Positions 17,801 through 56,068 of a stretch of 56,068 bases of DNA are shown here, one piece after another. The first letter of the stretch is position 1. Every line of letters begins with the position of its first letter. A program made the translations under genes and the position numbers. Origin of the DNA: Acidobacteriota bacterium. GTDB taxonomy: Bacteria > Acidobacteriota > UBA6911. The stretch spans positions 1-56,068 of the forward strand of contig JAAYAJ010000036.1 of the NCBI GenBank assembly GCA_012719455.1, in the 5' to 3' direction. The notes below the pieces were generated by a model. That model saw only the letters and a program-made list of their open reading frames with translations, was not told the origin of the DNA and ran no database searches.

Positions 17801-17901
17801 GGACCCCGGGGATCCCGTTGCACATGCAGGGATCCTCTTAATGCTGCTTCCTTCCGGACCTGACATGGTTCGAGGGTTGCATTGCACAGGGCCCGGGGCC
17901 C
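17801..17901 (-). ncRNA. ffs: Signal recognition particle RNA (4.5S type)
   Basis: The minus strand contains the universally conserved SRP domain IV sequence CAGGTCCGGAAGGAAGCAGC (plus 17,841-17,870 region). The flanks form a long hairpin closed by GGGCCCCGGG with CCCGGGGTCC. The length of about 101 nt fits the short bacterial class. It lies immediately upstream of dnaX, a position seen in many bacteria. The exact ends are estimated from the closing stem. Confidence 0.92.
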
Positions 17902-40823: not shown

Positions 40824-40864
40824 AATGCCCTTCCCTCCTCATCCCTTGCGGCGACAACGTCCAT

Positions 40865-41884: not shown

Positions 41885-42954
41885 AGGTCCGGCTGCAAAT
41901 CCGGACTACTTGGGTTCATATTCCTTCCTTTGCAGGTGAGACCGTGGACCGGTCTCAGGCGCCCCAATAATTCTTCTATCGAATGACACCACACCGCTCC
42001 GCCGTTCTTGATCTTCCAGCTGATCTCCCCTTTGCCGTGATATACCTGCACACATACCGGAGCGCCGTCCGGACCGACAACCTGGTACCCGGCACGCTCC
42101 AGCGCACGACAAGTCCATATTGCGGCCACCCCCTCTCCCACCAAGGCGATCCTGCCCATATTCGCGGCGCCGGACATGAAGGAGCCGGACGCTTTATCAA
42201 ACTGTACACCGCCGTGAGCGAATGCTTCGGCGAACGCATCCGTCAATATCAGGTCTTCGGGGGCCCCCTGCCGCATCGTTCCGTCAGGAGACAATAGCCA
42301 CAAACGATCCGCGTTGCGAAGAGCCAGATCCAGGTCATGGGTCGACAGCAGTATGGCCCGATCCCCGGAAAGGGCCAGCTTGCGCAACAGGTGCATCAAC
42401 TCGACACGGTGCGGCAGGTCCAGAAATGCGGTAGCCTCGTCGAGAATCATGACCTGCGGATCCTGGGCAAGGGCCCGGGCGATCATGACTTTCTGCCGTT
42501 CGCCGTCGCTGAGTTCACAAACCGGTCTCATCGCCAGGTCCAGGATTCCCACCGCGACAAGGGCATTATGGACAGCCTCGTGATCGCGCCGAGAAAGTCG
42601 GCCGCTCCAGCCGGTAAAAGGATGCCGCCCCATTGAGACCAGGGTGACTGCCGGCATGACGCCCACGGCGACGCGTTGGGTGAGAACCAGGCTGAGGCAT
42701 TGCGCAAGCTCACGGGCCGGATAGTCGACAATATTTCTGCCGTTGAGCCGCACGGTTCCAGCCAACTGAGGCTGGATGCGCGAGATGCTTCGTATGAGCG
42801 TTGATTTTCCCGCGCCATTGGGGCCGAGGAGGCAGACAAATTCTCCCGCATGCAACGAAACGCTTATGTCGGCGGCTACAACCCGCGCCGAATGCCCTGG
42901 CCGCGGATAGCCGATGCTCAGCCCCTGGATGTCGAGTATTGCCGCTTTTTCCAT
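41881..42954 (-). CDS. btuD: Corrinoid ABC importer ATPase with C-terminal extension
   Basis: 357 residues. Residues 1-250 are a BtuD/FecE-type ATPase: Walker A GPNGAGKST (44-52), signature LSDGE (148-152), Walker B VMILDE (168-173), switch His206. Residues of about 255-357 form an extra domain (GRIALVGEGVAAIWTCRALERAGYQVVG...) with a nucleotide-fold look, not needed for basic ATPase function. The ATG at 42954 shares one base with the btuC stop. It is expected to power import through BtuC. The symbol rests on operon context (cobalamin riboswitch, CbiZ). Confidence 0.85.
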   Translation of the reverse strand: MEKAAILDIQGLSIGYPRPGHSARVVAADISVSLHAGEFVCLLGPNGAGKSTLIRSISRIQPQLAGTVRLNGRNIVDYPARELAQCLSLVLTQRVAVGVMPAVTLVSMGRHPFTGWSGRLSRRDHEAVHNALVAVGILDLAMRPVCELSDGERQKVMIARALAQDPQVMILDEATAFLDLPHRVELMHLLRKLALSGDRAILLSTHDLDLALRNADRLWLLSPDGTMRQGAPEDLILTDAFAEAFAHGGVQFDKASGSFMSGAANMGRIALVGEGVAAIWTCRALERAGYQVVGPDGAPVCVQVYHGKGEISWKIKNGGAVWCHSIEELLGRLRPVHGLTCKGRNMNPSSPDLQPDL

Positions 42955-44033
42955 CAGCCCGCCTCCATCACGTGGCGGCGGCGCAGGATCACGGCAACCA
43001 CCACGGGCGCCCCGATCAGTGCGGTAACGGCGTTCAGAGGTAAAGAGATATGACTCCCGGGCACCTGTGCGATCAGGTCCGCAAACAGGGCCAGGGATGC
43101 ACCCAGCAATACAACCGCCGGCACAAGCACATGATGATCGGTGGTCTTCAGCAGCGCACGGCATAAATGGGGGACGGCGATACCCAGGAAGCCGATGGGG
43201 CCGCAAAAAGCCGTGACGGCTCCGGCCAGCAAGGCGGCCCCGATAATAATAAGGTTGCGCATGCGCCGGACGGGAACGCCCATGCTGCGTGCATATGCAT
43301 CGCCCAGCAGGAATGCGTTCAACGGCTTCGCCATCAGCCAAACACCCGATGTGCCAACAATAACCGCGGGAGCAAAAACGGTCAGCTGCTTCCACGTCAC
43401 CCCGGCAAACGATCCGAATGTCCAGGTGACGTAACTCTGCATCTGGTGCTCCCCGGAAAACTGCATCAGGATGCTGACCATGGAACTGGTGATATACCCG
43501 AACATCAACCCGACAATGAGCAGCGTAATGGTGTTCTCCACCCTGCGCGCAACGACAAGGACGATGCCCAAAACAGCCAAGGCTCCGACCGTTGCCGCTA
43601 AAATAATGGATAGATTTCCCGCCATGCGCGCCCGCGTAAGCCATCCCCCCCAGTTCAATCCATTCGCAGCCAACACCACCAGGGCCACCCCCAGACTTGC
43701 ACCGGAGCTGATGCCAAGAACGAATGGATCGGCAAGCGGATTGCGGAAGAGGGTCTGCATGTTCAGTCCCGCAATTCCCAGGGCGCAGCCGGCCAGCATT
43801 GCCGTGAGCGCGCGCGGCAACCGGAAAAGCAGGACGATCTGGCGCCAGCTTTCCGGCGCATCCGGGCTGCCCGCCAGTATGGCGATAACACTTTTGATCG
43901 GGATCATCAGCGACCCGATTGCAAGCTCCAATGAAAATGCCGTGATCAGCAGTGCCGTCAATGCCAACCAGATGATCGGCCGAACCCGGGGGGAAAGCGG
44001 CGCTTCGGGATCAGTCGGGGCTGAGGAAATCAT
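42954..44033 (-). CDS. btuC: Corrinoid ABC importer permease (FecCD family)
   Basis: A 359-residue protein with about 10 hydrophobic helices. Family hallmarks are RLPRALTAMLAGCALGIAGLNMQTLFRNPLADPFVLGISSGASLG, the coupling-region GDAYARSMGVPVRR, and GPIGFLGIAVPHLCR. It forms the inner-membrane channel of a type II importer. The ATG at 44033 overlaps the upstream SBP stop (ATGA); a longer frame to 44162 is rejected. Confidence 0.9.
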   Translation of the reverse strand: MISSAPTDPEAPLSPRVRPIIWLALTALLITAFSLELAIGSLMIPIKSVIAILAGSPDAPESWRQIVLLFRLPRALTAMLAGCALGIAGLNMQTLFRNPLADPFVLGISSGASLGVALVVLAANGLNWGGWLTRARMAGNLSIILAATVGALAVLGIVLVVARRVENTITLLIVGLMFGYITSSMVSILMQFSGEHQMQSYVTWTFGSFAGVTWKQLTVFAPAVIVGTSGVWLMAKPLNAFLLGDAYARSMGVPVRRMRNLIIIGAALLAGAVTAFCGPIGFLGIAVPHLCRALLKTTDHHVLVPAVVLLGASLALFADLIAQVPGSHISLPLNAVTALIGAPVVVAVILRRRHVMEAG

Positions 44034-45256
44034 TTTGCACCGCCTGCCTTTTCCGGAAGCTGCCAGTACCAGGTACGCTGGTGCAGGGGCAGGAGTTCCG
44101 GATGCATGATGCTGATCAGATCCGCCAACACCCTGTCCGGATTTGCTATGCCCGTTTCCCAAACGTCATTGCCTCCGCCGGAGCCCATTTTTGCGTTATC
44201 GTTGTAGACGCGCTTCGTGCGAAAAGCCCGGAATATCGAATATCTTTCATCCTGTCCCTCGAGCTCCTCCATGGATCGGCTGTCTGCGGGATTGAGCCAG
44301 ATGTCCGCATCTTTAGCGCGCGCAATGACCGATTCTATATTCATTGGAATGCTGCCGGTCGTCGCCTCATCCTTCCATAGGTAATCCCCCCCGGCATCGC
44401 GGATAAAAGCGCCGACAAAACTGTTGCCGCCGGGCATATGCCAAACGCCCCTGAAGTTCGCCCCGCAAAACACCGTCGGTCGAACAGCGGCGGCACTCGC
44501 CTTTGCCGCCTGCGCCTGATATCGCTCGGCGATACCGTCAAACAGGCTTTCCGCCTCGGTGTCTTTGTCGAAAAACGCCGCTATGAATTTCATCCACTCT
44601 GTACGGCCCAGCGGTGTTGTTTCCATATATTCCGAATTCATGGCGACATTAAAACCGGCTTCCTGGAGCTTGCCATGTTGATCGAATTCCGGAACCCCGG
44701 TCCCATACGTCATAATGAGATCCGGCTGAACGCCAACGAGCAACTCCATGTCAAAGCCCTTGGCCATCCCCGACCCATCGCCGACTTCCCGGATACGCCC
44801 ATCCCGGATGCGTGCGGCTACGGAAGGAGTGTCGACCATTTTCCCGTCCACAATCCCGACAATGGAGTCTTCGATGCCCAGCATCGCGAAATAAACAACA
44901 TGTGTTGTGCTCGTAACCACAATGCGCCGCACCGGCGTTTCCACCAGGATCGCGCCTTTTTCGACCTCGGGATGCTTTGCCCCACGCGGCACAAGCACGT
45001 AGGTGAAATTGGTCTTCGCATCTCGCCAGGGAGTAAGTACGCGCAAGACCTTGCATCCCGGCCGGTATTCCAGCGTGAATCCCTTTGCATGCCGGATCGT
45101 GGCGCCGGAATGGGGCAAAACCATCGACCGGCCGTCGGATTCCGAACCCTCTACGGACGGCTGATTACGGTTGCATGAATAACTAAAGGCGGCGCAGACC
45201 AGGAGCACCCAGGCGAAAAGGATCCGATTGTGCCTGCTGATTGCACTTCGTTTCAT
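44030..45256 (-). CDS. btuF: Corrinoid ABC importer substrate-binding protein
   Basis: A 408-residue exported protein. It has an N-terminal signal with Cys21/Cys28 (the lipobox is not canonical), then a short conserved N-terminal module (ATIRHAKGFTLEY...NFTYVLVPRGAKHPE). The FecB/BtuF clamp follows (VRRIVVTSTTHVVYFAMLGIEDSIVGIVDG, VQPDLIMTYG, WETGIANPDRVLADL). ATG 45256 is the first start after the riboswitch and terminator; a reading frame extending to 45418 runs through the riboswitch and is rejected. First gene of the leftward operon. Function is inferred from the riboswitch and from cbiZ. Confidence 0.85.
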   Translation of the reverse strand: MKRSAISRHNRILFAWVLLVCAAFSYSCNRNQPSVEGSESDGRSMVLPHSGATIRHAKGFTLEYRPGCKVLRVLTPWRDAKTNFTYVLVPRGAKHPEVEKGAILVETPVRRIVVTSTTHVVYFAMLGIEDSIVGIVDGKMVDTPSVAARIRDGRIREVGDGSGMAKGFDMELLVGVQPDLIMTYGTGVPEFDQHGKLQEAGFNVAMNSEYMETTPLGRTEWMKFIAAFFDKDTEAESLFDGIAERYQAQAAKASAAAVRPTVFCGANFRGVWHMPGGNSFVGAFIRDAGGDYLWKDEATTGSIPMNIESVIARAKDADIWLNPADSRSMEELEGQDERYSIFRAFRTKRVYNDNAKMGSGGGNDVWETGIANPDRVLADLISIMHPELLPLHQRTWYWQLPEKAGGAK

Positions 45257-45276
45257 GCCGCTGAATCCCATCGGGC

Positions 45277-45321
45277 AAAAAAAATCCCCGACTCCAGTCT
45301 TCATTGACCGGAATCGGGGAT
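45277..45321 (-). terminator. Intrinsic terminator of the btuF leader
   Basis: On the minus strand ATCCCCGA and TCGGGGAT pair, enclosing a further GTC/GAC-type inner stem, and are followed by eight T residues. It lies between the riboswitch and the btuF start, so premature termination is the likely expression platform. Confidence 0.85.
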
Positions 45322-45390
45322 GCCGTTTTCCATCCTCGACAATCATCTGCATGCGCGCCCAATCCACGAGGGGCAATGCAAACATGCTGC

Positions 45391-45533
45391 CTTCCAGGTC
45401 TTCCGGCTCCCGGATCATCCTACTTGCCGCGCCTTCCCACCCCTGCGGGCAGTGGCATTGCCGCGGCTTTGGTCCCCGGTTACGGCGGCGGGTCCGCGAC
45501 GGCTTTCAACCGTCTTCCCTGTCTTAATGGAAG
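45391..45533 (-). promoter_or_regulatory. Cobalamin riboswitch controlling btuFCD-rSAM-cbiZ
   Basis: The minus strand shows the classical class I landmarks in order: CGGACCCGCCGCCGTAA (plus 45480-45496), the B12 box GCCACTG (plus 45450-45456) with GGGAAGGC (plus 45431-45438), and AGACCTGG (plus 45394-45401). P1 is CTTCCA (plus 45528-45533) with TGGAAG (plus 45391-45396). It lies upstream of a terminator and btuF. Corrinoid binding should reduce expression. Confidence 0.9.
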
Positions 45534-45559
45534 CTAAGAAAAAGCGGGATTGAAGTCAA
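45531..45559 (-). promoter_or_regulatory. Candidate promoter of the leftward corrinoid operon
   Basis: On the minus strand TTGACT (plus 45554-45559) and TAGCTT (plus 45531-45536) are separated by 17 bp, just upstream of the riboswitch P1. The -10 element is a moderate match. Confidence 0.45.
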
Positions 45560-45629
45560 TAGGTTTTATTAAGCCTCCGCCGATGCCCGGCCCCCGGCTT
45601 GATCGGAACGCCAAAACTCGAGAAGCATA

Positions 45630-45659
45630 TTGACAATTCTCCATGCACGGTGGTATCTA
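45630..45659 (+). promoter_or_regulatory. Candidate promoter of the rightward btuB transcript
   Basis: TTGACA at 45630-45635 (perfect -35) and TATCTA at 45654-45659 with an 18-bp spacer. Transcription would begin around 45666, at the first riboswitch element. Confidence 0.5.
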
Positions 45660-45660
45660 G

Positions 45661-45757
45661 GGTGTTGTTTTTGGCATTGAATTCGGTGAAATTCCGAAAC
45701 TATACCCGTAACTGTGATTAGGCGTTAAACCCGCCTATAAGTCAGAGCGCAAACGCC
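45661..45757 (+). promoter_or_regulatory. Compact cobalamin riboswitch, upstream copy (element A)
   Basis: About 97 nt. The core reads GGTGAAATTCC, then CCCGTAACTGTGA, a small hairpin AGGCG/CGCCT, then AAGTCAGAGCGC. P1 is GGTGTT (45661-45666) with AACGCC (45752-45757). It matches the 5' and 3' core of the cobalamin class but lacks the peripheral B12-box arm, as in the compact AdoCbl/class II variants. An intrinsic terminator follows 41 nt later. Confidence 0.75.
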
Positions 45758-45798
45758 TCCGGGAAAAGAGGAGCCACACGGTCTTAATACGCGTAAGG

Positions 45799-45835
45799 CC
45801 CAGCCTCCAACCGGAGCGCTGGGTCTTTTTATTTT
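45799..45835 (+). terminator. Intrinsic terminator between the tandem riboswitches
   Basis: CCCAGC-CTCC (45799-45808) pairs with GGAG-C-GCTGGG (45813-45823, one bulged C), loop AACC, followed by TCTTTTTATTTT. GCCTCCGG at 45755-45762, whose first bases belong to P1 of element A, can instead pair with CCGGAGC (45811-45817). This gives an antiterminator alternative. Confidence 0.88.
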
Positions 45836-45912
45836 CGGACACAATCAAGCCCCCTGGGGCAGGAGTAAACCCATGTAGTATGAAGCAGGCCGGATTACGG
45901 CCTTCCAATCCA

Positions 45913-46019
45913 CCAAGGCAAAGGAAGTGAAGGTGCCCTGACATTGATCCTCGCAGGAATCCCTTCCACTGTCCCGCAACGGTAATTCTCATCCGAGAGA
46001 GTCCGGTCTATTGCCTTGG
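45913..46019 (+). promoter_or_regulatory. Compact cobalamin riboswitch, downstream copy (element B)
   Basis: About 107 nt. P1 is CCAAGGCAA (45913-45921) with TTGCCTTGG (46011-46019), a perfect 9-bp stem. The core has GAAGGTGCC, GGAATCC, ACTGTCCCGCAACGGTAAT, a TCTC/GAGA hairpin, then AGTCCGGTCT. It has the same layout as element A, without a B12-box arm. No terminator follows; the btuB Shine-Dalgarno sequence is 15 nt downstream, suggesting translational control. Confidence 0.78.
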
Positions 46020-46021
46020 AT

Positions 46022-46040
46022 GGAAGTATTTCCGAGGAGA
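46022..46040 (+). promoter_or_regulatory. Shine-Dalgarno hairpin element, copy 1
   Basis: GGAA-GTAT-TTCC hairpin directly followed by GAGGAGA, the ribosome-binding site of btuB. It is 18/19 identical to 50343-50361 in front of the small ORF of cluster 2. Confidence 0.55.
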
Positions 46041-46056
46041 GAGAAAGGAATTTACC

Positions 46057-48246
46057 GTGAACAGGATTGTATTTGCTTTTCTTTTTTGCCTGACTGTTCT
46101 TTGCTGCTCTGCGATACCCGCTCAAGAAATCTCCGAGAATTCCGGCACCGCTCAACCCAAAGAAAAGATCCGGGCGACCCACCTCGATCAAGTCGTAAGG
46201 GTAACCGCGGACGGAGTCAGGGCCACCCTGTTGGACACCCCCTCCACCATCAACATCATTACAGCTGATGACATCGAACAATCCGGGCAGCGTGATCTAA
46301 CCGGCATTATCACCAGCATACCGGGAGTGTTGGATGACGGATCGGGGGCTACTTACTTTAATTTTCGGGGCACCCGCTCCTCCTCCAGCGAGGGAGCCGC
46401 CATTTTTATAGACGGCAAACCCCTGAATTTGGGAAAAATGGATTACAGCATCATTGACGATATCCCACGGGACATTGTAGAGCGCATCGAGGTCGTAAAG
46501 TCTCCCGCCGCTTCGCGTTATGGCGCCAATTCATCGCGTGGAGCCATCAATATTGTCACGCGCTCGGGGCAGAACGCCGGCAAGCCTTTTGATACCAGGA
46601 TATCGCTGGATATCGGATCATGGCAAAGCTATAAGGCCTTCGTTACCATGTCGGGAAAGAAAAACTCCTGGGATTACAGCGCGCAATTCGGCCGCGACCA
46701 ATCCGAGGGCTATCGACAGATAGACTCGGAGCGCACCCTGTTCAACGCCAAAGCAGGATACGAGATAGCGAGCGGCATCCGGATTGACGCCAATTTCGGC
46801 TGGAACGACACCTGGCGCAAAAACGCCCGGGGCCTCCAATACTGGTCGCTTGATGAATATAGGGACCGCAGCTACGTACCCAACAGCCAAACGGGAAGCA
46901 CGTATAATGTCCGGCCGAATGAATCGGATCACAGGTTGTTCTCGAGCGGCATTGCATTCCAATACAACCGCGGCAATTGGAATGTCAATACTTCTTTCGA
47001 TTTCAGCCATTTTGACGATATATTCAGCTCCCTTCGCTACTACAACAATCCGGGGAATGGAACAACCCAGCGCGGCCAGGGCACGTATATTGAAGACCGC
47101 AACGAAAACAAGTATGGCTTCAAAGCCACCGCAAACCGCTCCTTCATCCGTGGGGAGCATCTGCTCAATACCTTCTCCATAGGATACGACTACGCTCTTA
47201 CAGACTGGGACCAGGCCCGGGACTATCCATATGCCGAAAGCCTGAGTTCGAGCACCATAACCGCCATCAAGAAGAACGACCTCGACTTCTCCCGCGCAAT
47301 TCACGGCGTTTTTATCAACAACGACCTGAAATGGAACCGCTGGGGGCTGTATCTGGGCATGCGCCATGATTCAGTGATTTACAGCCTGGAAAACAGGCTG
47401 CCGCTGTCCGTTGAAAAGACCTTCAGCGAGCCCTCGTGGGACGTTATACCTTCCTACAGCATCGGCAAGAACAGCAATCTCTATTTCTCGATCGGGCGAA
47501 ATTACTGGTATCCCAACTCCTATTACCTGATTGCGGCCATGGAATACGACGATCCCGACAACCAGCCGGAAGACCTGAAGCCGGAAAAATATCTGAATTT
47601 CGAAATCGGGCTCAAGCAGCAGGTGCATGCAAGTTTTAACTACAGCGTTGCCCTGTACCGATCCAACGTAGACAACAAGTATATGCCCTTCTACACCAGC
47701 GGCGGGTTCAAGGGATACAAACACGTCGGCAAGAGCATCCACCAGGGCATAGAACTTGAAGCGGATGGACATCCCCTTCATTGGCTGGGATATCGGGCCG
47801 GATTCACCTATATCAACGCAAAATGGGATGATGCAACGATGCGCATCTATGTGTATGGCGCCACCCCTTCCCTCGACACCGTGCAAAGCGTGGATATTTC
47901 CGGAAAGAGGGTCTACCGTGTCCCCGCTTACCAATACACGGGAAGCCTGATTTTCACGCCTCTTAAACCATTCACCTTTTCGGTCGACATTCATGGATTC
48001 GGCAAGCAAAACATCGACGCGTATAACAGGTATAAGCAAAACGCGGTAAACCTCGTCGACCTGAAAGCCGGCTATAGGATCAACAAATTTCTCGAGCTGT
48101 ATATCCTGGGCAGCAATGTCTTCAACACGCATTATGAGAGCATATTCAACACCGATGGCAAGCGCACCAAGGATGGCATTCCGAACCATGACTATTACCC
48201 CAAGGACGGCCGCTATGTTCAGGGTGGAATAAAGGTGAGGTTCTAA
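46057..48246 (+). CDS. btuB: TonB-dependent outer membrane corrinoid receptor (BtuB-like)
   Basis: A 729-residue receptor. Signal peptide MNRIVFAFLFCLTVLCCSAIPAQ; TonB-box-like DQVVRVTA; plug domain with LLDTPSTINIITADDIEQSGQRDLTGIITSIPGV and AASRYGANSSRGAINIVT. A large beta-barrel follows, ending in an aromatic residue (GGIKVRF). The GTG start at 46057 follows a GAGGAG site. It is preceded by tandem cobalamin riboswitches and divergent from btuFCD, so corrinoid import across the outer membrane is the expected role. TonB/ExbBD are not in the window. Confidence 0.9.
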   Translation: MNRIVFAFLFCLTVLCCSAIPAQEISENSGTAQPKEKIRATHLDQVVRVTADGVRATLLDTPSTINIITADDIEQSGQRDLTGIITSIPGVLDDGSGATYFNFRGTRSSSSEGAAIFIDGKPLNLGKMDYSIIDDIPRDIVERIEVVKSPAASRYGANSSRGAINIVTRSGQNAGKPFDTRISLDIGSWQSYKAFVTMSGKKNSWDYSAQFGRDQSEGYRQIDSERTLFNAKAGYEIASGIRIDANFGWNDTWRKNARGLQYWSLDEYRDRSYVPNSQTGSTYNVRPNESDHRLFSSGIAFQYNRGNWNVNTSFDFSHFDDIFSSLRYYNNPGNGTTQRGQGTYIEDRNENKYGFKATANRSFIRGEHLLNTFSIGYDYALTDWDQARDYPYAESLSSSTITAIKKNDLDFSRAIHGVFINNDLKWNRWGLYLGMRHDSVIYSLENRLPLSVEKTFSEPSWDVIPSYSIGKNSNLYFSIGRNYWYPNSYYLIAAMEYDDPDNQPEDLKPEKYLNFEIGLKQQVHASFNYSVALYRSNVDNKYMPFYTSGGFKGYKHVGKSIHQGIELEADGHPLHWLGYRAGFTYINAKWDDATMRIYVYGATPSLDTVQSVDISGKRVYRVPAYQYTGSLIFTPLKPFTFSVDIHGFGKQNIDAYNRYKQNAVNLVDLKAGYRINKFLELYILGSNVFNTHYESIFNTDGKRTKDGIPNHDYYPKDGRYVQGGIKVRF

Positions 48247-48311
48247 ATCACACCAAGGACATGGCTTTGATTGCATTTTGTCCGGCAGACTGGTGCTCCT
48301 TGACTCAGAAT

Positions 48312-48462
48312 GCCCCGACTCTCTCAAATACCATTTTTGAGATGGGTCGGGGCGGTTCTCCCTGCATTCGTGGTTCCACCGGATGCGGGGAAACCTCCCG
48401 TCTGAAAATGGGCAAGGGCGTCATTCCGCCGCATGGCGATGGGATGGGACCGGCCCGACCCC
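48312..48462 (+). promoter_or_regulatory. Structured leader RNA with two mutually exclusive helices
   Basis: GCCCCGAC (48312-48319) pairs perfectly with GTCGGGGC (48346-48353), extended by TCTCAAA/TTTGAGA (48322-48328, 48336-48342). The same strand GGGTCGGG (48344-48351) also pairs perfectly with CCCGACCC (48454-48461), extended by GGT/ACC. The second helix encloses a hairpin GCATTCGTGGT/ACCGGATGC and a purine-rich core with GGGGAAACCTCCC. No T-tract is seen. The alternative pairing suggests a riboswitch or attenuator for the following receptor gene; cobalamin-class core motifs are absent and I cannot assign a class. Confidence 0.55.
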
Positions 48463-48562
48463 AATGAAAAAAGGCTGTGAAATGCGTATTTGTAAAAATG
48501 TTGCCCTCACCTGTTCAACGGCACATGCGGTCTCTATACATTGTCAGCCCGGCAGCCCGCTT

Positions 48563-50293
48563 ATGCGTAAAGCAAGGATGCTTGCAGCGATGCTGTTCCT
48601 GTGTATTTCATCCGCAACAGCTCAAACCGCAAGTTCCATCAAAGAGGATGCCGGGAAAATAGAGTTGACCGCCAAGGACATTAAGGAGATGAACGCCTCA
48701 AACATCGTTGAACTCTTGAACCGGGTTCCCGGCGTAGAGGCGGGCGATAGCAGCGTGAAGATCCGCGGCTCCCTGGAAGTGAAGGTCTTTATGGACGGTC
48801 GCCCGCTGAATGATCCGCTTTCAAGACATAGCAGCATCAAATGGAGCATGGTTTCCATTAACAATGTTGAAAAGATAGAGATCTTCAAGGGCAGCGGCGC
48901 CGTTGCTTTCGGAGACGGAACCAGCGGCGGCGCCATTCGCATCACCAGCAAAAAAACTGAAAAGAGCCATGCAAAGCTCAAGGCCCAGGGCGGAAATTGG
49001 AGCACGCAGCAGTATAACCTGGACTATGGAAGACAATTCGGCCATTGGGGAGTTTTTGCTTCATCGGAATATTTCTCCACGGACAGCTACAGGGTGAACC
49101 AGGACAAGGAACGAAAACGTTTCGGGGTCAAAACGGACTATCACCCCCAACAGGATTCTCTCTACAGCCTCTCCGCCGATTACGCCGAAGAGGAACGTGG
49201 AAGCGCCGGATACCCGGCCTACCCCACGCCGCATGCCCGGGAATATTCCCGGTCCTTCGCCCCGGCTCTTGGGATAACGCTGGGACGCTTTCGCAATAAT
49301 TTGAACGGGGGCATTTACCGCCAAAAAAGCACCGATTCAGACAGGGGAATTGATTCATGGGTTGACGGCTGGTCTCTTTGGGAAGATGCCTCCTACAGCA
49401 TCATCACCGACGGGATTCTCAACAATCTTGCACTCGGCTTTACATTTAAGGCGGATCACGTGGACGGGGCCACGATCGCCCCCCGAACGGAGGCAAGTTA
49501 TGGTGTGAGTTTTCAAAAACAATTCAGCTTCGGCAAAAAGGGGTTAAACGCGACCTTGGGTTTCAGGGCCAACATGTACTCCGCGTTTGACACGGCATTG
49601 AATCCGGAATTGAGAATTGCGTACAAGGCAACCCCTAGTTTGGACCTTCAATTCTCCGTTACTCGAACGAACAATATTCCCTCCATTCTCAGGCGTTATT
49701 ATCGAACTTCATCCACAAGACCAAATCCCGACCTGGACATGGAAAAGGCGACAAATCTCAGCTTTTTTGCCGCCTATCGCCCCAATGAAAAACTTCAGGC
49801 AGGGTTTACCGTCTTCCATAACGAAATCACCGACAAAATCACTTATGTCCGCGACCTGGTAGGAAGCGGGGGGACGTACCGGAATTTCGGCAAGGTAACT
49901 CGGAAGGGCACCGACCTGACGGTAGAGTGGAAACCTGTGCAATGGCTGATCATAAAGCCGTCTCATGAATACCTGATCGCGCAGGATGAAGAAACGGGAT
50001 TGGAATTGACGGCATCTCCCCATCATCGCACGCAGGTGAGTATTCACTATAAACCGGTGCGCCAATTCACAGCCGTGCTGATATATGAACGCGAATCCAA
50101 GCAATACACCCGGTCCGACAATTTAGAGTACGCGGATCCATACAACCTTTTTGAGCTTCGCGCGGATTACTCGATCGGTCGATGGCTGCTATACGGCCGC
50201 ATCAAGAACCTTGCCAACAGGACATATCTTTACGGAGACGGGCTTCCCGCCCCACCGCGATCCTGGATAGGGGGATTGAGTCTCGAGTTATAG
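48563..50293 (+). CDS. Second TonB-dependent outer membrane receptor
   Basis: 576 residues from the ATG chosen for its signal peptide (MRKARMLAAMLFLCISSATAQ). Starts at 48464 or 48482 (AAAAGG upstream) would add a long N-region. The plug shows IELTAKDIKEMNASNIVELLNRVPGV, KVFMDGRPLND, GSGAVAFGDGTSGGAIRIT; a compact barrel ends in SLEL. No obvious TonB box is seen. It is shorter than receptor 1 and heads the rightward cluster 2 with CcsA/ResB-like proteins and an importer. The substrate is unknown; corrinoid, haem, other tetrapyrrole or metal chelate are all possible. Confidence 0.85.
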   Translation: MRKARMLAAMLFLCISSATAQTASSIKEDAGKIELTAKDIKEMNASNIVELLNRVPGVEAGDSSVKIRGSLEVKVFMDGRPLNDPLSRHSSIKWSMVSINNVEKIEIFKGSGAVAFGDGTSGGAIRITSKKTEKSHAKLKAQGGNWSTQQYNLDYGRQFGHWGVFASSEYFSTDSYRVNQDKERKRFGVKTDYHPQQDSLYSLSADYAEEERGSAGYPAYPTPHAREYSRSFAPALGITLGRFRNNLNGGIYRQKSTDSDRGIDSWVDGWSLWEDASYSIITDGILNNLALGFTFKADHVDGATIAPRTEASYGVSFQKQFSFGKKGLNATLGFRANMYSAFDTALNPELRIAYKATPSLDLQFSVTRTNNIPSILRRYYRTSSTRPNPDLDMEKATNLSFFAAYRPNEKLQAGFTVFHNEITDKITYVRDLVGSGGTYRNFGKVTRKGTDLTVEWKPVQWLIIKPSHEYLIAQDEETGLELTASPHHRTQVSIHYKPVRQFTAVLIYERESKQYTRSDNLEYADPYNLFELRADYSIGRWLLYGRIKNLANRTYLYGDGLPAPPRSWIGGLSLEL

Positions 50294-50342
50294 CCGGAAC
50301 AACCTTGAATCGGGGCCAATGATGCGGCCGATCGCACCAGAC

Positions 50343-50361
50343 GGAATTATTTCCGAGGAGA
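50343..50361 (+). promoter_or_regulatory. Shine-Dalgarno hairpin element, copy 2
   Basis: GGAA-TTAT-TTCC hairpin followed by GAGGAGA, six bases before the ATG at 50367. Nearly identical to the element in front of btuB (46022-46040). Confidence 0.55.
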
Positions 50362-50366
50362 AATAA

Positions 50367-50603
50367 ATGCTTACAGAACCATCCCCTATAAGCTCTCTGA
50401 CATTTTATCAGCATCTGTTCAGCCCCAATAGTTTGCACCCGCGCCCTCGGCAATTGGATTCCATTTTTTCTTTGCATTATCCTTTTTCTTCAAGTGTTTA
50501 CGGGCAGCCATGTCCTCAACCAGACGCCCGCCCCGCGAGCGGACTCCGCTCCGAATGCATGGATCTGCTCCCCCCCTCCAGTACCGCATGGAGACGGCCA
50601 TGA
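50367..50603 (+). CDS. Small hypothetical protein, translationally coupled to CcsA-like gene
   Basis: A 78-residue frame (MLTEPSPISSLTFYQHLFSP...). I recognise no family. It is Pro/Ser-rich, has two Cys, and has no signal peptide or membrane helix. The case for translation is positional. GAGGAG lies exactly six bases before the ATG, and the TGA overlaps the ATG of the CcsA-like gene (ATGA), which itself lacks a ribosome-binding site. It may be a coupling leader rather than a functional protein. The composition alone would not support it, and a Lys-rich antisense frame overlaps it. Confidence 0.45.
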   Translation: MLTEPSPISSLTFYQHLFSPNSLHPRPRQLDSIFSLHYPFSSSVYGQPCPQPDARPASGLRSECMDLLPPSSTAWRRP

Positions 50604-51370
50604 AAGCGCTCATTCACAATCTTTTTCTGTTCGCGTGCGCTGCATGTATTCCCGCGGCAATTTTTTCAATGCTTGGGTGGAGGCGCCTGCGGAATGTTAT
50701 CTATTTGGTTGCCGTTTCCTTAATGCTCGCGTCGACAGCGGTGCGCATTGCCTACAACTGGCCCTTGATGTGCCTCTACCAGGAGCCCTATTTGATTTCC
50801 TTGCTTCTCCTGTTATTGCCGATCCATCTGTATGTAAAAGGAGACATTTCCTCGGCAATCGCTTCGGGGACTGCGGCGGTACTGGTATCCTTCTTCTCCC
50901 TTTTATTCCCAGGAGACATTTACGTATCATTCGTAAAAACCAATAGCATTTTCGCGCATCTTTTTTCCCTCTTTTCCTCATTTGCACGGGCGGCCTATTT
51001 CTGCTCCGCTGCGATTTCGATCCGAATACTTCTATCCCGCACCAATTCTGGCGCCGGTCCATCGACAGCGGACCTGGGCCGAACTACAAACCTGATAATT
51101 GCCGGATTCGCCCTTCACACGCTGGGTATGTTTTGCGGCGGAATATGGGCCTATTGTGGATGGGGCACCCCTATTCAATGGGAATCGCATCTATTGCTGG
51201 GCATGGCCGGTGTCTGGTTTTACTACGCCTGGTTTCTCCACCTTCACCTTGCCGGAAACTATAGCCGGCGCACGATGCTGTGCGCTTCTTTTGCCGGGGG
51301 AGTTCTAACCTTCCTGTTTGCTTTTCTGCCCGACACCGGGGTTTTCAATTTCCAGGGGATTATCCAATGA
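50600..51370 (+). CDS. Divergent CcsA/CcmC-like membrane protein
   Basis: A 256-residue protein with about eight hydrophobic segments. Residues from about 178 read IIAGFALHTLGMFCGGIWAYCGWGTPIQWESH, then a helix ending LHLHL. This aligns with the CcsA haem-handling (WWD) region WAxxAWGxYWSWDPKE. The first Trp and the W-G are kept, but the YWSWDPKE part is replaced by PIQWESH. Flanking His residues on both sides are retained. It is probably a relative of the cytochrome c system II haem channel with an altered ligand site. The start is the ATG at 50600 (coupled); 50510 and 50588 are alternatives. Partner: ResB-like gene next. Confidence 0.68.
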   Translation: MKALIHNLFLFACAACIPAAIFSMLGWRRLRNVIYLVAVSLMLASTAVRIAYNWPLMCLYQEPYLISLLLLLLPIHLYVKGDISSAIASGTAAVLVSFFSLLFPGDIYVSFVKTNSIFAHLFSLFSSFARAAYFCSAAISIRILLSRTNSGAGPSTADLGRTTNLIIAGFALHTLGMFCGGIWAYCGWGTPIQWESHLLLGMAGVWFYYAWFLHLHLAGNYSRRTMLCASFAGGVLTFLFAFLPDTGVFNFQGIIQ

Positions 51371-52173
51371 GCCGACTGAAACGGGCCCTTGACGCTCTCG
51401 GCAGTATGCGCTTTGCCGTCTACCTTCTCGCGGCTACATCTATCCTGTTTATGGCCGGCGCGCTCTGCTACCGGCTCAAACCCGCCGTTTTTACACCGCT
51501 AAATTCCACCATGCTGTTTGAATGGCTTGCAACATACGGAATCATGAATGCACGGCACACCTGGTGGTTTTTTCTCCTGATAGGCATCTTCTTTTTCCTG
51601 GGCGTCAACACCTTCCTTTGCACGCTGGTGCGCATGATGGCGCTTATAAAGCTGAGAAACCGCAGGTCCCTGAAATCCCTGCTATACCTACTCTCGCCCC
51701 ATATCATGCATATCGCCTTCCTTGTCATCATCCTGGGATATCTGGTGCTTTACACGTTCGGGGTCAATTCCTACAACAACATTCTTAAACCCGGTTACCG
51801 CCGGCCGCTTCCCGGCTCCGAGATCATGATAGAGATCCGCAATCCTTCATTTGCCACCGTTGCCCATAAACATAATGACTTTTTAAACCGTCTCCATATA
51901 TCCGCAAACTATGAGCTTGTCCTCCATGATGAGGGGAAAACAGTACGGAAAAACCTGGGATTGAACAGCCCCTGCCTTTATAAGGGCTACAGCATCCATG
52001 TAGCGGATTTCAATCCTTCCCGCGTCCAATCCACGACCCGCAGCATTTGGGTCAACCTGACGATTCGAAAGAACGTGGGGATTCCAATATTCATGGCCGG
52101 CATTGTGCTCTTTGCGGTGGGAGTGTTTCTGTATCTGCTTTCCGCTTTCACAAAAAGCCATCAGGTTCTATAG
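51367..52173 (+). CDS. Miniature ResB/Ccs1-like membrane protein
   Basis: 268 residues, shorter than typical ResB (about 400 or more). The start SRLKRALDALGSMRFAVYLLAATSILFMAGAL matches the ResB opening helix (L-x-S-x-R-x-A-x-x-L-L). A second helix pair and SPHIMHIAFLVIILGYLVL with His residues follow, then a short periplasmic domain (YKGYSIHVADFNPSR) and a final helix. In system II, ResB and CcsA relay haem and reduce apocytochrome. Here the pair is embedded in an uptake operon with no cytochrome gene, so another tetrapyrrole or metal substrate is possible. ATGA overlap with the CcsA-like gene. Confidence 0.72.
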   Translation: MSRLKRALDALGSMRFAVYLLAATSILFMAGALCYRLKPAVFTPLNSTMLFEWLATYGIMNARHTWWFFLLIGIFFFLGVNTFLCTLVRMMALIKLRNRRSLKSLLYLLSPHIMHIAFLVIILGYLVLYTFGVNSYNNILKPGYRRPLPGSEIMIEIRNPSFATVAHKHNDFLNRLHISANYELVLHDEGKTVRKNLGLNSPCLYKGYSIHVADFNPSRVQSTTRSIWVNLTIRKNVGIPIFMAGIVLFAVGVFLYLLSAFTKSHQVL

Positions 52174-52189
52174 ACAAGGAGAAATTAAG

Positions 52190-53251
52190 GTGAAACGCAT
52201 TGCCGCTTTTTTGATCTCGGTCCTGGTCTTTTCCTGTTGGGGCTGTAATTTCGAAAAAAGTTTCCAATCCATCGGGCCCTTCACCGTTCAGAAACAGCCT
52301 AACGGAACTCTCGTCAGCGACGGCATCAGCAGGAAATTTCTTCTGGTGCCCCGGGGACAAAAAGCTCCCGCGGACACGGGCGGGGCGACGGTCGTGTATA
52401 CCCCCGTAAAGAGAGTGATCGCCTATTCCACCTGCGATGTTTCCTTTCTTGTCGGCTTCGGCATACTCCGCGAGGTTCTTGTAGGCGTCACGAAAGAAAA
52501 AGATGAATGGACGACCGACCTCATAAGGCAAGCCATGGATGAAGGCAAAATCATCTATCTCGGAGAGTCCTCCCAGATCAATTTTGAGCTGCTGAAGTCC
52601 GTCAAGCCCGATATTGTTTTCACCTGGAACGCGGACATCATTCCCGTGCTCGAAGACTTGCAAATACCGACCGTCATCACCAGCACCGAACTGGCCAAGG
52701 GACTGGAGGCCCAGGCCAAGTACGTGGAATTCATAGCCCCGTTCTTTCACAAGGAAAAGGAAGGCCGTGTTTTCGTCGACAAATTCCTGAATGCCATAGA
52801 CCAGATCAAGGCAAAATCCCCGGCCATCAAAGACAGGCCGAGTGTCATCTGGGGAGATGTATACAACAAGCGTGTTCTGGTAGAGCCCAACAACGCATGG
52901 GTATCGCAGCTTGTCAACCTTTCCGGCGGGAAATATGAGCTCGACGATGTCCAGGGTGCATCCTGCCTTGAAATAACGATTGAGCGGTTTTTCCTGGCCG
53001 GCAAGAAGGCGGACATCATGTTCACCTACCGGTCCCCCAAAACCGGCATCAATTCCAAAAGGCAACTTGCTATTGAAAACCCCATGATGGCGAGTATCCG
53101 CCCCATGCTCAGCGGCGAAATCTACACGCCCAGGGAGACATTTTATGAATCCTATCACAGGCTGGATGAGGTGATGTTTGAAATAGCCTCTATCCTTCAA
53201 CCGACCGTATTTGGTCCTCCCCGCTACGAGTTTTTTCAAAGGCTACAGTAA
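52190..53251 (+). CDS. ABC importer substrate-binding lipoprotein (FecB/BtuF family), cluster 2
   Basis: A 353-residue protein starting with GTG after AAGGAGAAATTAAG. Lipoprotein-type signal VKRIAAFLISVLVFSCWGC. It shares with the cluster 1 protein a short N-terminal module ending RKFLLVPRGQKAPAD, then the BtuF-type clamp: PVKRVIAYSTCDVSFLVGFGILREVLVGV, LKSVKPDIVFTW, and YESYHRLDEVMFEIASILQP. It should bind the ligand released by receptor 2. Ligand unknown; relatives bind corrinoids, haem, Fe-siderophores or molybdate. Confidence 0.85.
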   Translation: MKRIAAFLISVLVFSCWGCNFEKSFQSIGPFTVQKQPNGTLVSDGISRKFLLVPRGQKAPADTGGATVVYTPVKRVIAYSTCDVSFLVGFGILREVLVGVTKEKDEWTTDLIRQAMDEGKIIYLGESSQINFELLKSVKPDIVFTWNADIIPVLEDLQIPTVITSTELAKGLEAQAKYVEFIAPFFHKEKEGRVFVDKFLNAIDQIKAKSPAIKDRPSVIWGDVYNKRVLVEPNNAWVSQLVNLSGGKYELDDVQGASCLEITIERFFLAGKKADIMFTYRSPKTGINSKRQLAIENPMMASIRPMLSGEIYTPRETFYESYHRLDEVMFEIASILQPTVFGPPRYEFFQRLQ

Positions 53252-53256
53252 GCATC

Positions 53257-54288
53257 ATGAACGAAGACACAATGGTTGAAAACAGGCGATACCTTTACCT
53301 TTTCCCAATTGTCGCGTTGCTGCTCGCAGCATCCGTAATACTCAACCTCATCATCGGCACGGCCCATATCCGCCTTTCGGAAATCCTGGCGATCCTGTTG
53401 GGGCGCGTTCCCTCTGAAGTGGTTGAGAGCTTTATCATTTTCAAGATCAGGATGCCGCGCCTGGTGGCTTCCCTGATCGGCGGAGGCTTTCTTGCCGTCT
53501 CCGGTCTCCTGATGCAGGTCTATTTCCGCAATCCCATCGTCGGCCCCTATATTCTTGGCATATCTTCCGGCGCCACGTTGGCGGTAGGCATTGCCACCCT
53601 CTCATCGCTCAGCCTCGGATTTGCGGGCATAAGCCCATACATGACGGTCCTGGCCGCCTTCATCGGCGCCTGCAGCGTCATGGCCATCGTCATCTTTGTG
53701 GCATCCCGGATGAAAAGCGTCATCGCCCTGCTTCTCATAGGGATAATGATGGGCTACGTTGCATCCGCCCTTACGGACATCCTGGTTGCCTTTGCCAACA
53801 AGGAAAAAATCAAGCATTTTGTTCTCTGGGGCATGGGAAGCTTTTCCGGGTTCAGCTGGGAGGAAATCCTCATACTCTTTTTTGCCGGGGGAGCCATTGT
53901 TGTCGGCACATACTTGATGAGCAAGCATTTGAATGCTTTTTTGCTCGGCGAAGAGTATGCACAGTCGATGGGCGTGAACATCCGGCTATTTCGCGTTTTG
54001 CTCATATTCCTGTCGTGCGCCCTGGCGGCCCTTGTCACGGCCAGCGCGGGTCCCGTGGGTTTTATCGGGCTGGCCGTTCCCCACATGGCGCGCATTCTCT
54101 TTAAAACCCAGAACAACCGCATTTTGATCCCCGCCTGCCTGCTGCTCGGCGGCTTTGTGACCAACATCTGCGATCTTGTGGCGAGGACTGCGTTCTCCCC
54201 GGCGGAGCTGCCGCTCAGTTCCATTACCGCCATATTCGGTGCCCCCATTGTCATAGGCCTTATCGCCAAAAGGAGGTATTCGCTATGA
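53257..54288 (+). CDS. ABC importer permease (FecCD family), cluster 2
   Basis: A 343-residue polytopic permease with about ten helices. FecCD signatures are KIRMPRLVASLIGGGFLAVSGLLMQVYFRNPIVGPYILGISSGATLA, LGEEYAQSMGVNIR, and AGPVGFIGLAVPHMAR. It starts five bases after the SBP stop; its own Shine-Dalgarno is weak. The 3' end carries the AGGAGGT ribosome-binding site of the ATPase gene. Confidence 0.9.
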   Translation: MNEDTMVENRRYLYLFPIVALLLAASVILNLIIGTAHIRLSEILAILLGRVPSEVVESFIIFKIRMPRLVASLIGGGFLAVSGLLMQVYFRNPIVGPYILGISSGATLAVGIATLSSLSLGFAGISPYMTVLAAFIGACSVMAIVIFVASRMKSVIALLLIGIMMGYVASALTDILVAFANKEKIKHFVLWGMGSFSGFSWEEILILFFAGGAIVVGTYLMSKHLNAFLLGEEYAQSMGVNIRLFRVLLIFLSCALAALVTASAGPVGFIGLAVPHMARILFKTQNNRILIPACLLLGGFVTNICDLVARTAFSPAELPLSSITAIFGAPIVIGLIAKRRYSL

Positions 54289-55562
54289 ATCCGGCATCCA
54301 GCGCGGCGGAAATTGTTATTGAAATGAAGGACTTGGCCGTGGGCTATGGCAAGAAGCGGGTCCTGTCCAATATCCATGCCAAGATAGCGAAGGGCCAATT
54401 CGTTTCACTGCTCGGACCGAACGGTGCGGGTAAAACAACACTGCTCAGGACAATTACGCGACACCTCCGGAAATTGGATGGAGTTCTGCTGCTGAACAAC
54501 AAGCCGATTGAAACCTATCGATATAAGGAGCTAGCCGCCAATCTTGCCGTTGTTCTCACGTCAAGAATAAGCACGGAGTTGTTTACCGGCTTCGAATTCG
54601 CGGCCATGGGCCGACATCCCCATACAGGATTGATGGGAAACCTTACCTTGCGTGATAAGAATATCGTATGGGAATCCCTCCGCCTGGTGAACGCGGAAAA
54701 CCTGGCAGCCCGCCCGATGAATGAACTGAGCGATGGAGAAAAACAGAAGCTGTTCATCGCCAGGGCGCTCTGCCAGGAGCCGAAAATCATCGTCCTGGAC
54801 GAACCCACGGCCCACCTTGATCTAAAACACAAAATGGAAATCATGGCCATTCTCGCCGAGTTTTGCAGAACCAAAGGAATAACGATAGTTGCTTCTTTGC
54901 ACGACGTGGGAATCGCCGCAAGGATTTCAGACCAGGTTGCGCTCATAAAGAATGGATCCGTGGTTGCATGGGGCAGTCCGGAAGAGGTGCTTCACGACGC
55001 CAATCTTTCAGATCTCTATGAGATCACTTTGGCAACTTATGACAGGCGGATTGGCACCCTGGAATTGAAATGCAGCCCGGGGACAGGAAAAGTCTTCTGC
55101 ATTTCGGGGGCGGGGACCGGAGCGGTTTTATATCGTTCGCTCGCCAGAAACAAGCTGAATGTGACAACGGGGATTCTGCACGAAAACGATATTGACTGCC
55201 ACATTGCCACCGCCCTCGGATTCACAACAATTACCGCACCTCCCTTTACAAAAATACCCGAAGGATTGCTGGAAAAATGCCTGAGTCCCATTGAAGATGC
55301 CGACTACATCCTCGACACGGGATTTCCCATCCAAGAAGCAAATAAAATGAATGTCCGGCTTCTTGAACATGCCCTGGAAGCCGGGAAACCTGTCATTTCA
55401 ATGCGAAAAGAGCGGCATTTTTTCGGTCTGCCATTGGAGGGGAAAAACGGCATCACTTTTGTAGAAAACGAACAATCGGTCCTCGACATTCTGACCGGCG
55501 CCTTCGGCCATGTCCAGGCCTCGGAAGCGCCGGCATCTTCCCAGGCGCCAACCCGGATCTAG
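54285..55562 (+). CDS. ABC importer ATPase with additional C-terminal domain, cluster 2
   Basis: 425 residues. The ATPase part (1-260) has Walker A GPNGAGKTT, signature LSDGEKQK, Walker B IIVLDEPT and a His switch in SLHDVG. From about residue 270 an extra domain of about 130 residues begins KVFCISGAGTGAVLYRSLARNKLNVTTGILHENDIDCHIATALGF and contains an ADYILDTGFPI segment. A similar, shorter extension occurs in the cluster 1 ATPase. It might sense cargo or a nucleotide; unproven. Strong AGGAGGT site and ATGA overlap with the permease. Confidence 0.87.
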   Translation: MNPASSAAEIVIEMKDLAVGYGKKRVLSNIHAKIAKGQFVSLLGPNGAGKTTLLRTITRHLRKLDGVLLLNNKPIETYRYKELAANLAVVLTSRISTELFTGFEFAAMGRHPHTGLMGNLTLRDKNIVWESLRLVNAENLAARPMNELSDGEKQKLFIARALCQEPKIIVLDEPTAHLDLKHKMEIMAILAEFCRTKGITIVASLHDVGIAARISDQVALIKNGSVVAWGSPEEVLHDANLSDLYEITLATYDRRIGTLELKCSPGTGKVFCISGAGTGAVLYRSLARNKLNVTTGILHENDIDCHIATALGFTTITAPPFTKIPEGLLEKCLSPIEDADYILDTGFPIQEANKMNVRLLEHALEAGKPVISMRKERHFFGLPLEGKNGITFVENEQSVLDILTGAFGHVQASEAPASSQAPTRI

Positions 55563-55677
55563 CCGGTGGAATATGCGAACCTTTCCTGATTCTCCGATCA
55601 TTGCCAGGCGGGAGATGCCAGGCGACGCGAATGATTCATCGCGTGAATGATTGGAGCCCGAGGACAGGATTCTATAA

Positions 55678-56068
55678 ATGAGTGTTTTTGGAATCGTTTC
55701 TGCTTGTTTTCGCAAATCCTGGTGGCTTACAGTCTGCGGGCTGATATCCATCTTCTGCCTTGAGATGCTTACTCTCTATGGCCCCCAGCTCGTGAAACAG
55801 GCTATCAATATGCTGGCAACGGGCCATGCTGACCCTGCCGCCCTGTTCCGCCTGGTGCGTACGCTTGTCGTGCTTGCCCTCGGAGTGGCGATCCTGCGTT
55901 TTTTCGGCCGTCCCATGTTCATGGCTTTCGGCCGCATTGTGGACCGGGAACTCCGTGAACAATTCCTTCAACGGGTCATAGGGCTGCCGAGAACGGTGAG
56001 CGGGAAATATTCGCCGGGCGAAATAATGGCGCGCGCCACCTATGACATCGACAACATTCAAACGGCCA
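55678..56068 (+). CDS. ABC exporter-type transmembrane protein (partial, right edge)
   Basis: The first 130 residues are visible and the frame runs off the window. Two hydrophobic helices (WWLTVCGLISIFCLEMLTLYGP; VRTLVVLALGVAILRFFGRPM) are followed by VDRELREQFLQRVIGLPRTVSGKYSPGEIMARATYDIDNIQ. This is the first coupling-helix region of type IV ABC exporters (GDIMSRxTNDID-like). A nucleotide-binding domain is expected downstream. It is 115 bp after the cluster 2 ATPase in the same direction. That gap contains a possible 25-codon frame (55573-55650) for which I claim no function. Confidence 0.78.
   Translation, partial: MSVFGIVSACFRKSWWLTVCGLISIFCLEMLTLYGPQLVKQAINMLATGHADPAALFRLVRTLVVLALGVAILRFFGRPMFMAFGRIVDRELREQFLQRVIGLPRTVSGKYSPGEIMARATYDIDNIQTA

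Follow-up and report, generated by a model that had tools for sequence, protein, structure and literature searches.

What does a pair of proteins resembling cytochrome c assembly factors do in an operon with no cytochrome nearby? The question is raised by a stretch of 56,068 nucleotides (hereafter the window; contig JAAYAJ010000036.1 of GenBank assembly GCA_012719455.1, positions 1 to 56,068, forward strand) from an Acidobacteriota bacterium of the GTDB lineage UBA6911. Two plus-strand open reading frames (ORFs) sharing an ATGA overlap encode a CcsA-like membrane protein of 256 amino acids (aa; 50600–51370) and a minimal ResB/CcsB-like membrane protein of just 268 aa (51367–52173), both in the place that a preliminary description, made from the sequence alone, had given them. 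The surroundings likewise agree with that description: TonB-dependent receptors, in fact two of them, lie upstream, genes for a BtuF-like protein, a FecCD-type permease and an ATPase lie downstream, and the absence of a nearby cytochrome gene is borne out, with no CXXCH protein among the genes at 37–56 kb of the window. As argued below from sequence comparison and structural models, the two proteins on balance appear to form a minimal CcsB/CcsA-type complex acting as the transmembrane haem-b redox module of an operon for TonB-dependent corrinoid uptake under B12-riboswitch control.

A System II fold that has lost the synthase site

Judged from the predicted structures, the pair is by fold a descendant of System II of cytochrome c assembly. 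The CcsA-like protein matched the Pfam family Cytochrom_C_asm with 37.3 bits (cut-off 29.9), and the ResB-like protein reached 23.9 bits against Pfam ResB, under the cut-off of 24.6 that orthologues at two related loci pass (L027, 31.7 bits; L031, 58.0 bits). The cut-off of the equivalog model TIGR03144 (187.6 bits) was not reached by the CcsA-like protein (26.3 bits), and its L031 orthologue scored 32.7 bits. AlphaFold models of both proteins were confident, with predicted local distance difference test (pLDDT) scores of 86.4 for the CcsA-like and 88.9 for the ResB-like protein. The former aligned with residues 624–909 of CcsBA (7s9y) at Z 20.5 (251 residues, 3.5 Å) and the latter with residues 2–339 at Z 11.9 (217 residues, 3.2 Å); the corresponding Z-scores against CcmF were 18.4 and 9.4. 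The comparison with CcsBA, which the preliminary description had called for, thus returned matching rather than unrelated folds. A PDB search by single sequence gave no match for the pair, and CcsBA was not among the matches listed by Foldseek for the CcsA-like model, although structural realignment did align the two.

Both histidines that ligate haem within the membrane in CcsBA are kept: H214 of the CcsA-like protein corresponds to CcsBA H858, and H115 of the ResB-like protein to H83 (chain numbering). Each is present in 20/20 sequences of what we term the B12 class, an alignment of the window pair with the 19 relatives described below, and both are invariant in alignments of the wider family too, so that two buried histidines stand unchanged at ~20–35% identity. 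Also invariant are Trp206 of the CcsA-like protein, whose spacing to H214 equals that of a Trp-His pair in CcmF, and, within the B12 class and specific to it, H112 of the ResB-like protein. A further histidine, singled out in the preliminary description as part of a 'WESH' motif (H197), is peculiar to the window protein; relatives mostly have D-P or D-A at this position, and we rejected it as a ligand. Conservation of histidines across homologues, which that description had put forward as a check, therefore holds for H115 and H214 and fails for H197.

The C-terminal LHSY histidine is absent in 35/35 sequences and the WLHVS histidine is absent as well, so that both P-His1 and P-His2 are lost; a histidine two residues before the WLHVS position (CcsA-like position 120, near the periplasmic face) occurs in 15/20 sequences, in the B12 class only. 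The WWD signature is rewritten, as previously described: WAYCGWGTPIQWESH stands where the canonical WAxxxWGxYWxWDPKE would be, and the motif WGxYWxWDP is replaced by W.Y.GWG.P..W[EDHN][DSN]. In CcsBA, the P-His residues and the WWD motif make up the synthase site and are needed for synthase activity (PMC6299221, PMC10663686), and P-His mutants contain haem at wild-type levels (PMC6299221). Apart from the membrane haem ligands, the pair fails every tested functional hallmark of a System II synthase.

The source genome encodes System I (CcmF, CcmC, CcmA and CcmB) and HemX beside HemA. Since it has its own System I and, in addition, another pair that belongs to the sister class described below, cytochrome c assembly can do without the window pair. 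A role of the window locus in cytochrome c assembly was accordingly rejected, on the grounds of this System I, the lost P-His and WWD residues and the lack of a CXXCH neighbour. The earlier proposal that the pair serves an uptake operon, with a tetrapyrrole cofactor as the likely cargo, is in keeping with these results.

Cobalamin riboswitches and corrinoid salvage genes

Cobalamin riboswitches flank the locus, a feature absent from the preliminary description, as was the cargo that they indicate. Upstream of the receptor/pair operon lies a tandem of two cobalamin-class elements on the plus strand. The first, of the adenosylcobalamin (AdoCbl)-II type (45668–45755), scored 32.3 bits, under the gathering threshold of 36.5 (E 2.9e-4), and is overlapped by an RF00174 match at 45634–45774 (27.9 bits, E 3.8e-5 in a genome-wide scan). 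The second, of the AdoCbl type (45895–46055), scored 37.2 bits, under its gathering threshold of 50 (E 8e-4), and ends at the start codon of receptor 1. On the minus strand, an RF00174 riboswitch at 45376–45559 (92.1 bits, gathering threshold 31.5) leads a divergent operon. In the source genome, which is 97% complete, we found CobS and CbiZ, with no match to CbiD and none to CobN (an empty result from a search without a positive control). Given CbiZ and CobS and no CbiD or CobN match, the organism has the appearance of a corrinoid salvager, and corrinoid uptake is the best reading of the operon. From this gene context, it is very likely that the pair takes part in corrinoid uptake.

An iron-siderophore cargo, suggested by BLAST-type receptor names and by the CcsA locus of Bacteroides thetaiotaomicron, which is induced by iron (PMC10434189), was considered and, for the B12 class, rejected, as the cobalamin riboswitches and salvage genes mark the cargo as a corrinoid. 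Separately, a segment of ~52 bases in the gap that separates receptor 2 from ccsA (50324–50374) is similar to the 3' end of the AdoCbl-type riboswitch further upstream, with a local score of 43 (mean 26 and maximum 43 in shuffles). Because relatives carry a riboswitch directly before ccsA, this segment is possibly a decayed one.

Recurrence of the operon in Desulfobacterota

A first scan of genome contigs with a single pair sequence gave no match, and neither did a search for the pair in plasmids and phages. Scanning GTDB species with a CcsA-like motif yielded 37 loci. The order ccsA-resB-btuF is found in six of them, all in Desulfobacterota-type genomes, among them that of Desulfocicer vacuolatum DSM 3385. 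There, btuC-btuD follows btuF in 5/6, that is, wherever the contig goes on, and RF00174 lies close upstream in 6/6. A separate survey of 395 Desulfobacterota genomes found the B12-type pair in 14, one of them (G399) being the Desulfocicer genome already among the six; btuF stands directly after resB in 14/14. A same-strand RF00174 site lies ≤3 kb upstream of resB in half of these genomes (7/14) and at ~9 kb in two more, against a chance expectation of ~0.05 coincidences in all (site density ~2.5 per Mb in the survey genomes); at several of the loci without a nearby site, the contig ends close by. A reverse search with the pair-linked BtuF recovered the same genomes, together with two lacking a pair match (G571 and G785) whose contigs stop at or within btuF.

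Besides the window, the order ccsA-resB-btuF(-btuC-btuD), often led by a riboswitch, thus occurs at 19 Desulfobacterota loci, and most of the orthologous loci carry RF00174 at full strength. With the pair recurring in orthologous order at 19 other loci, H115 and H214 invariant, and the models matching CcsBA, a chance resemblance is excluded. CobN and a radical SAM protein are often encoded in the same cluster as the Desulfobacterota pair operon, and in several of these operons a radical SAM homologue follows btuD. The only CXXCH in B12-class operons is in the radical SAM protein of L030.

A Cys or probable Sec position specific to the pair-linked BtuF

The BtuF-like substrate-binding lipoprotein that follows the pair in the window (52190–53251, plus strand; Pfam Peripla_BP_2, 49.6 bits) carries a cysteine at position 259 (codon 52964–52966) that is invariant in pair-linked BtuF proteins, within the motif G-x-[ST]-C-[LIM]-E. 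At five loci (L031, L120, L121, L125 and L126), an in-frame TGA occupies the Cys259 position, and the reading frame is conserved beyond it. Counting cysteine or putative selenocysteine (Sec) together, the residue is found in 19/19 pair-linked BtuF proteins of the alignment, as opposed to 0/7 paralogues outside pair operons; L125, a UGA gene whose contig begins inside btuF, and L126, which did not align usably, were left out of this count. One of the seven paralogues, btuF2 of the window, has a serine there.

All five UGA genomes encode tRNA-Sec (RF01852 above cut-off in 5/5; SeC anticodon tca by ARAGORN in four). A hairpin of 7–8 bp follows the UGA at +15 to +34 in 4/5 genes; it was equalled by 51–193 of 2000 synonymous shuffles, and a similar hairpin occurs downstream in one Cys-type btuF gene, so that as evidence for a selenocysteine insertion sequence (SECIS) the hairpin alone is no more than suggestive. 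Taken with the tRNA genes and the conserved frame, the UGA in the five btuF genes probably encodes selenocysteine.

In three MAFFT modes, global and local, Cys259 aligns with Trp196 of Escherichia coli BtuF, at low identity; a local alignment with E. coli BtuF covered only the N-lobe, leaving MAFFT as the basis of the Trp196 match. This tryptophan is part of the lining of the cobalamin cavity, and the corrin ring in BtuF has its beta side towards the C-lobe (PMC5269720). By alignment, Cys/Sec259 would therefore sit at a cobalamin-cavity position.

A sister class with other partners

The other loci fall into a clade of their own (split support 100). In them, receptor-ccsA-resB is accompanied by a protein with Oxidored_molyb-type domains that is often fused to a tetrapyrrole-methylase-like domain; an amino-acid-permease-like protein is often present too. 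Four of these loci (L022, L024, L050 and L060), with operons of the form TonB receptor-ccsA-resB-Oxidored_molyb-fold protein, carry a molybdenum or tungsten cofactor (Moco/W-cofactor) riboswitch (63–72 bits). Such an arrangement suggests TonB-dependent uptake of a molybdenum or tungsten cofactor; TonB receptors are not mentioned in the 2008 paper on the Moco riboswitch (PMC2408646). On the evidence of gene context, the pair is a module that TonB operons employ for two or more kinds of cargo, and both classes have at least one other candidate for inner-membrane transport.

Whether homologues stand beside c-type cytochromes, a point raised in the preliminary description, has a divided answer: this is not so in the B12 class and partly so in the sister class, where 12 of ~21 partner proteins have a single CXXCH and the others none.

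Two further observations concern this class. At L011 (7056–8819) and L049 (2163–3911), a secreted-looking fusion of two Oxidored_molyb-type domains with a tetrapyrrole (corrin/porphyrin) methylase domain is encoded beside ccsA/resB, and some copies of this fusion carry a single CXXCH. The source genome itself holds a sister-class CcsA/ResB-like pair on another contig (L008, 8300–9880); pairs of this type are kept in several genomes of the genus with no adjoining TonB receptor, in one of them (G006) beside cytochrome bd genes.

Proposed function and its alternatives

With this gene order, these riboswitches, the CcsBA-like fold, its kept and lost histidines and a Cys/UGA position strictly linked to the pair, haem occupancy, electron flow and chemistry at cobalt can be inferred along the following lines. 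One haem b would be bound between His115 of the ResB-like and His214 of the CcsA-like protein in the inner leaflet, as the conserved ligands and the fold suggest, and would receive electrons from quinol or from the cytoplasm. Electrons could then reach the periplasmic face via aromatic residues, Trp206 among them, in a manner resembling the proposal for CcmF, for which a haem reductase activity acting through its membrane haem on a periplasmic tetrapyrrole has been put forward (PMC10663686). There, the rewritten WWD pocket or a docked BtuF might present the corrinoid, and the target of reduction would be either the corrinoid in the neighbouring BtuF-like protein or its Cys/Sec259. The outcome would be reduction of Co(III), loss of the beta-axial ligand (methyl, adenosyl, cyano or sulphide) or both, and the product would be cob(II)alamin, a corrinoid that has been dealkylated or a Cys/Sec returned to its reduced state, between which sequence cannot tell. 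Varied environmental corrinoids might in this way be captured as a single species and passed on to BtuCD. We tentatively propose, as a possible rather than a probable function, a periplasmic corrinoid reductase or dealkylase, in which the membrane haem feeds electrons to cobalamin in the Cys/Sec BtuF before the inner membrane is crossed, and in which the module is also employed, alongside different partners, for Moco/W-cofactor uptake.

Several observations weigh against this proposal. The pair lacks a periplasmic acceptor haem site, and the tryptophan relay of CcmF (W214/W251) is only partly mappable, the Trp206-His214 spacing alone matching and no counterpart of W214 being placed. In the same window, btuF2-btuC2-btuD2 works without a ccsA/resB pair. 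The hairpin after the UGA is weak in some genes (L126), and the CobN encoded in many Desulfobacterota pair operons would fit a cobalt-centred role too.

That last point leads to an alternative in which the same redox module handles cobalt or a Co(III)-chelate instead of a finished corrinoid, and the Co(II) set free by reduction is inserted into the corrin ring by the co-encoded cobaltochelatase CobN. Cobalamin riboswitches also control cobalt importers, and CobN, in some loci with ChlI/ChlD-type partners, lies before or after the pair operon in most Desulfobacterota loci. The source genome, however, has kept the pair although it could not put cobalt to use in corrin synthesis, lacking CbiD and any CobN match (in the search without a positive control), while its CbiZ and CobS indicate corrinoid salvage and Cys259 aligns with a cobalamin-cavity position of BtuF; we regard cobalt as an unlikely cargo. 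Rather than reduce a tetrapyrrole, the pair might also move one, passing a corrinoid across the membrane or exporting haem to load a periplasmic partner. CcsBA, which exports haem (PMC10663686), shares both the fold and the two membrane histidines, yet the exit site formed by P-His1, P-His2 and WWD is lost here, the ABC importer BtuCD always adjoins and makes a second translocator unneeded, and the sister class has an amino-acid-permease-like protein as partner instead. Such transport is similarly improbable. The preliminary description had suggested that the pair might either handle or reduce a cofactor; reduction in the periplasm appears to be the best-supported function, and haem transport is not called for, with BtuCD present and the periplasmic haem ligands gone.

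The strict link to a Cys/Sec BtuF would also suit a specialised attachment enzyme that joins haem (or a corrin) through a single thioether to Cys/Sec259, or to the CXXCH of some sister-class partners. Joining haem to cysteine has a precedent in this family, and one CXXCH is indeed found in 12 of the ~21 partners; the others have none, synthase activity requires both P-His and the WWD motif (PMC6299221, PMC10663686), which are gone here, and haem attached covalently inside the BtuF cavity would keep B12 from binding, all of which makes attachment very unlikely. An equally low probability is given to a non-redox factor that docks or gates TonB receptors or BtuF, with the CcsBA fold retained and its histidines structural. 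Operons for different cargos do combine the pair with TonB receptors, but two buried histidines are invariant at such low identity, and the neighbouring Cys/Sec speaks for redox chemistry.

Gene content and composition of the window

In the receptor/pair operon, TonB-dependent receptor 1 (46057–48246, plus strand, 729 aa; Pfam Plug and TonB_dep_Rec) is followed by receptor 2 (48383–50293, plus strand; Pfam Plug, 60.6 bits), a 636-aa ORF whose true start is probably downstream and which has a homologue in L030 (35% over 591 aa). Beyond the pair and its BtuF, the plus strand encodes a BtuC/FecCD permease (53257–54288; Pfam FecCD 264.9 bits, best NCBIfam match BtuC) and a BtuD-like ATPase with a C-terminal extension (54285–55562); the best NCBIfam match of the latter, the corrinoid ABC ATPase PRK09536, spans residues 11–361 of 402 and takes in the extension.

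The divergent minus-strand operon comprises btuF2, the second binding protein, without a ccsA/resB pair (44030–45256; Pfam 66.5 bits), the permease gene btuC2 (42954–44033; Pfam FecCD), btuD2 for an ATPase with an extension (41881–42960; Pfam ABC_tran), a radical SAM gene (40865–41884; Pfam 63.7 bits) and cbiZ, whose product is an adenosylcobinamide amidohydrolase of corrinoid salvage (39630–40823; Pfam CbiZ 204.8 bits). The starts of the first three genes are inferred.

The block at ~40–56 kb (39630–56068) has a G+C content at third codon positions (GC3) of 0.50–0.70, compared with 0.82–0.86 in sampled genes elsewhere in the window, and was therefore probably acquired horizontally, with a Desulfobacterota relative as the likely donor. 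In agreement with this compositional sign of transfer, the window pair groups with the Desulfobacterota locus L104 in the tree (support 89). Outside the block, a bacterial small signal recognition particle (SRP) RNA (17801–17898, minus strand, 61 bits) adjoins a dnaX-like gene.

Comparison with known systems and implications

The pair shares with CcsBA/ResBC the folds of both halves, the gene pairing, the two membrane histidines (TM-His1 and TM-His2) and a small periplasmic beta domain. It differs in lacking P-His1 and P-His2, in the rewritten WWD loop and in a ResB half of only 268 aa, and it stands without a cytochrome c partner in a B12-controlled uptake operon of a genome that has System I. 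The likeness to CcmF of System I extends from fold (Z 18.4 and 9.4) to the proposed reduction of a periplasmic tetrapyrrole by a membrane haem (PMC10663686); unlike the pair, CcmF has retained WWD and P-His, and its substrate is holo-CcmE, while the presumed substrate here is a corrinoid or the thiol/selenol of a binding protein. With BtuB-BtuFCD the system has in common a TonB receptor, a binding protein, a FecCD-type permease, an ATPase and a cobalamin riboswitch, to which it adds the CcsA/ResB-like pair, Cys/Sec in place of BtuF Trp196, the ATPase extension and, in relatives, linked radical SAM and CobN genes. PepSY-type periplasmic siderophore reductases such as FoxB and FpvG are also inner-membrane haem proteins that reduce imported metal complexes beside a TonB receptor, though with an unrelated fold and for iron rather than a corrinoid.

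Selenoproteome reviews list a predicted BtuF selenoprotein (cd01144) with the motif CxxU (PMC13188914, PMC9312934). The proteins described here are likewise of BtuF type with a predicted selenocysteine, but their motif is G-A-S-U-[IM]-E, which lacks the Cys in front, and they are tied to the pair. Consistent with the novelty claimed earlier for the combination of receptor, pair and importer, we found no description of such a system, nor of any that joins cobalamin with ResB/CcsA, in the literature searched, subscription papers lying outside the search.

We propose that the pair is built like System II and used for something else, working more like the reductase function of CcmF inside a Btu system. 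Cytochrome c assembly is what CcsBA-type proteins are known for, and a conserved branch without the synthase site, with the membrane haem site, in riboswitch-controlled cofactor-import operons would be a second use of the fold. The well-known enzymes that process B12 at cobalt, such as CblC, act inside the cell; if the redox step is true, these bacteria would process the cobalt centre of B12 before it leaves the periplasm, and the chemistry of a selenocysteine facing cobalamin could be tested directly.

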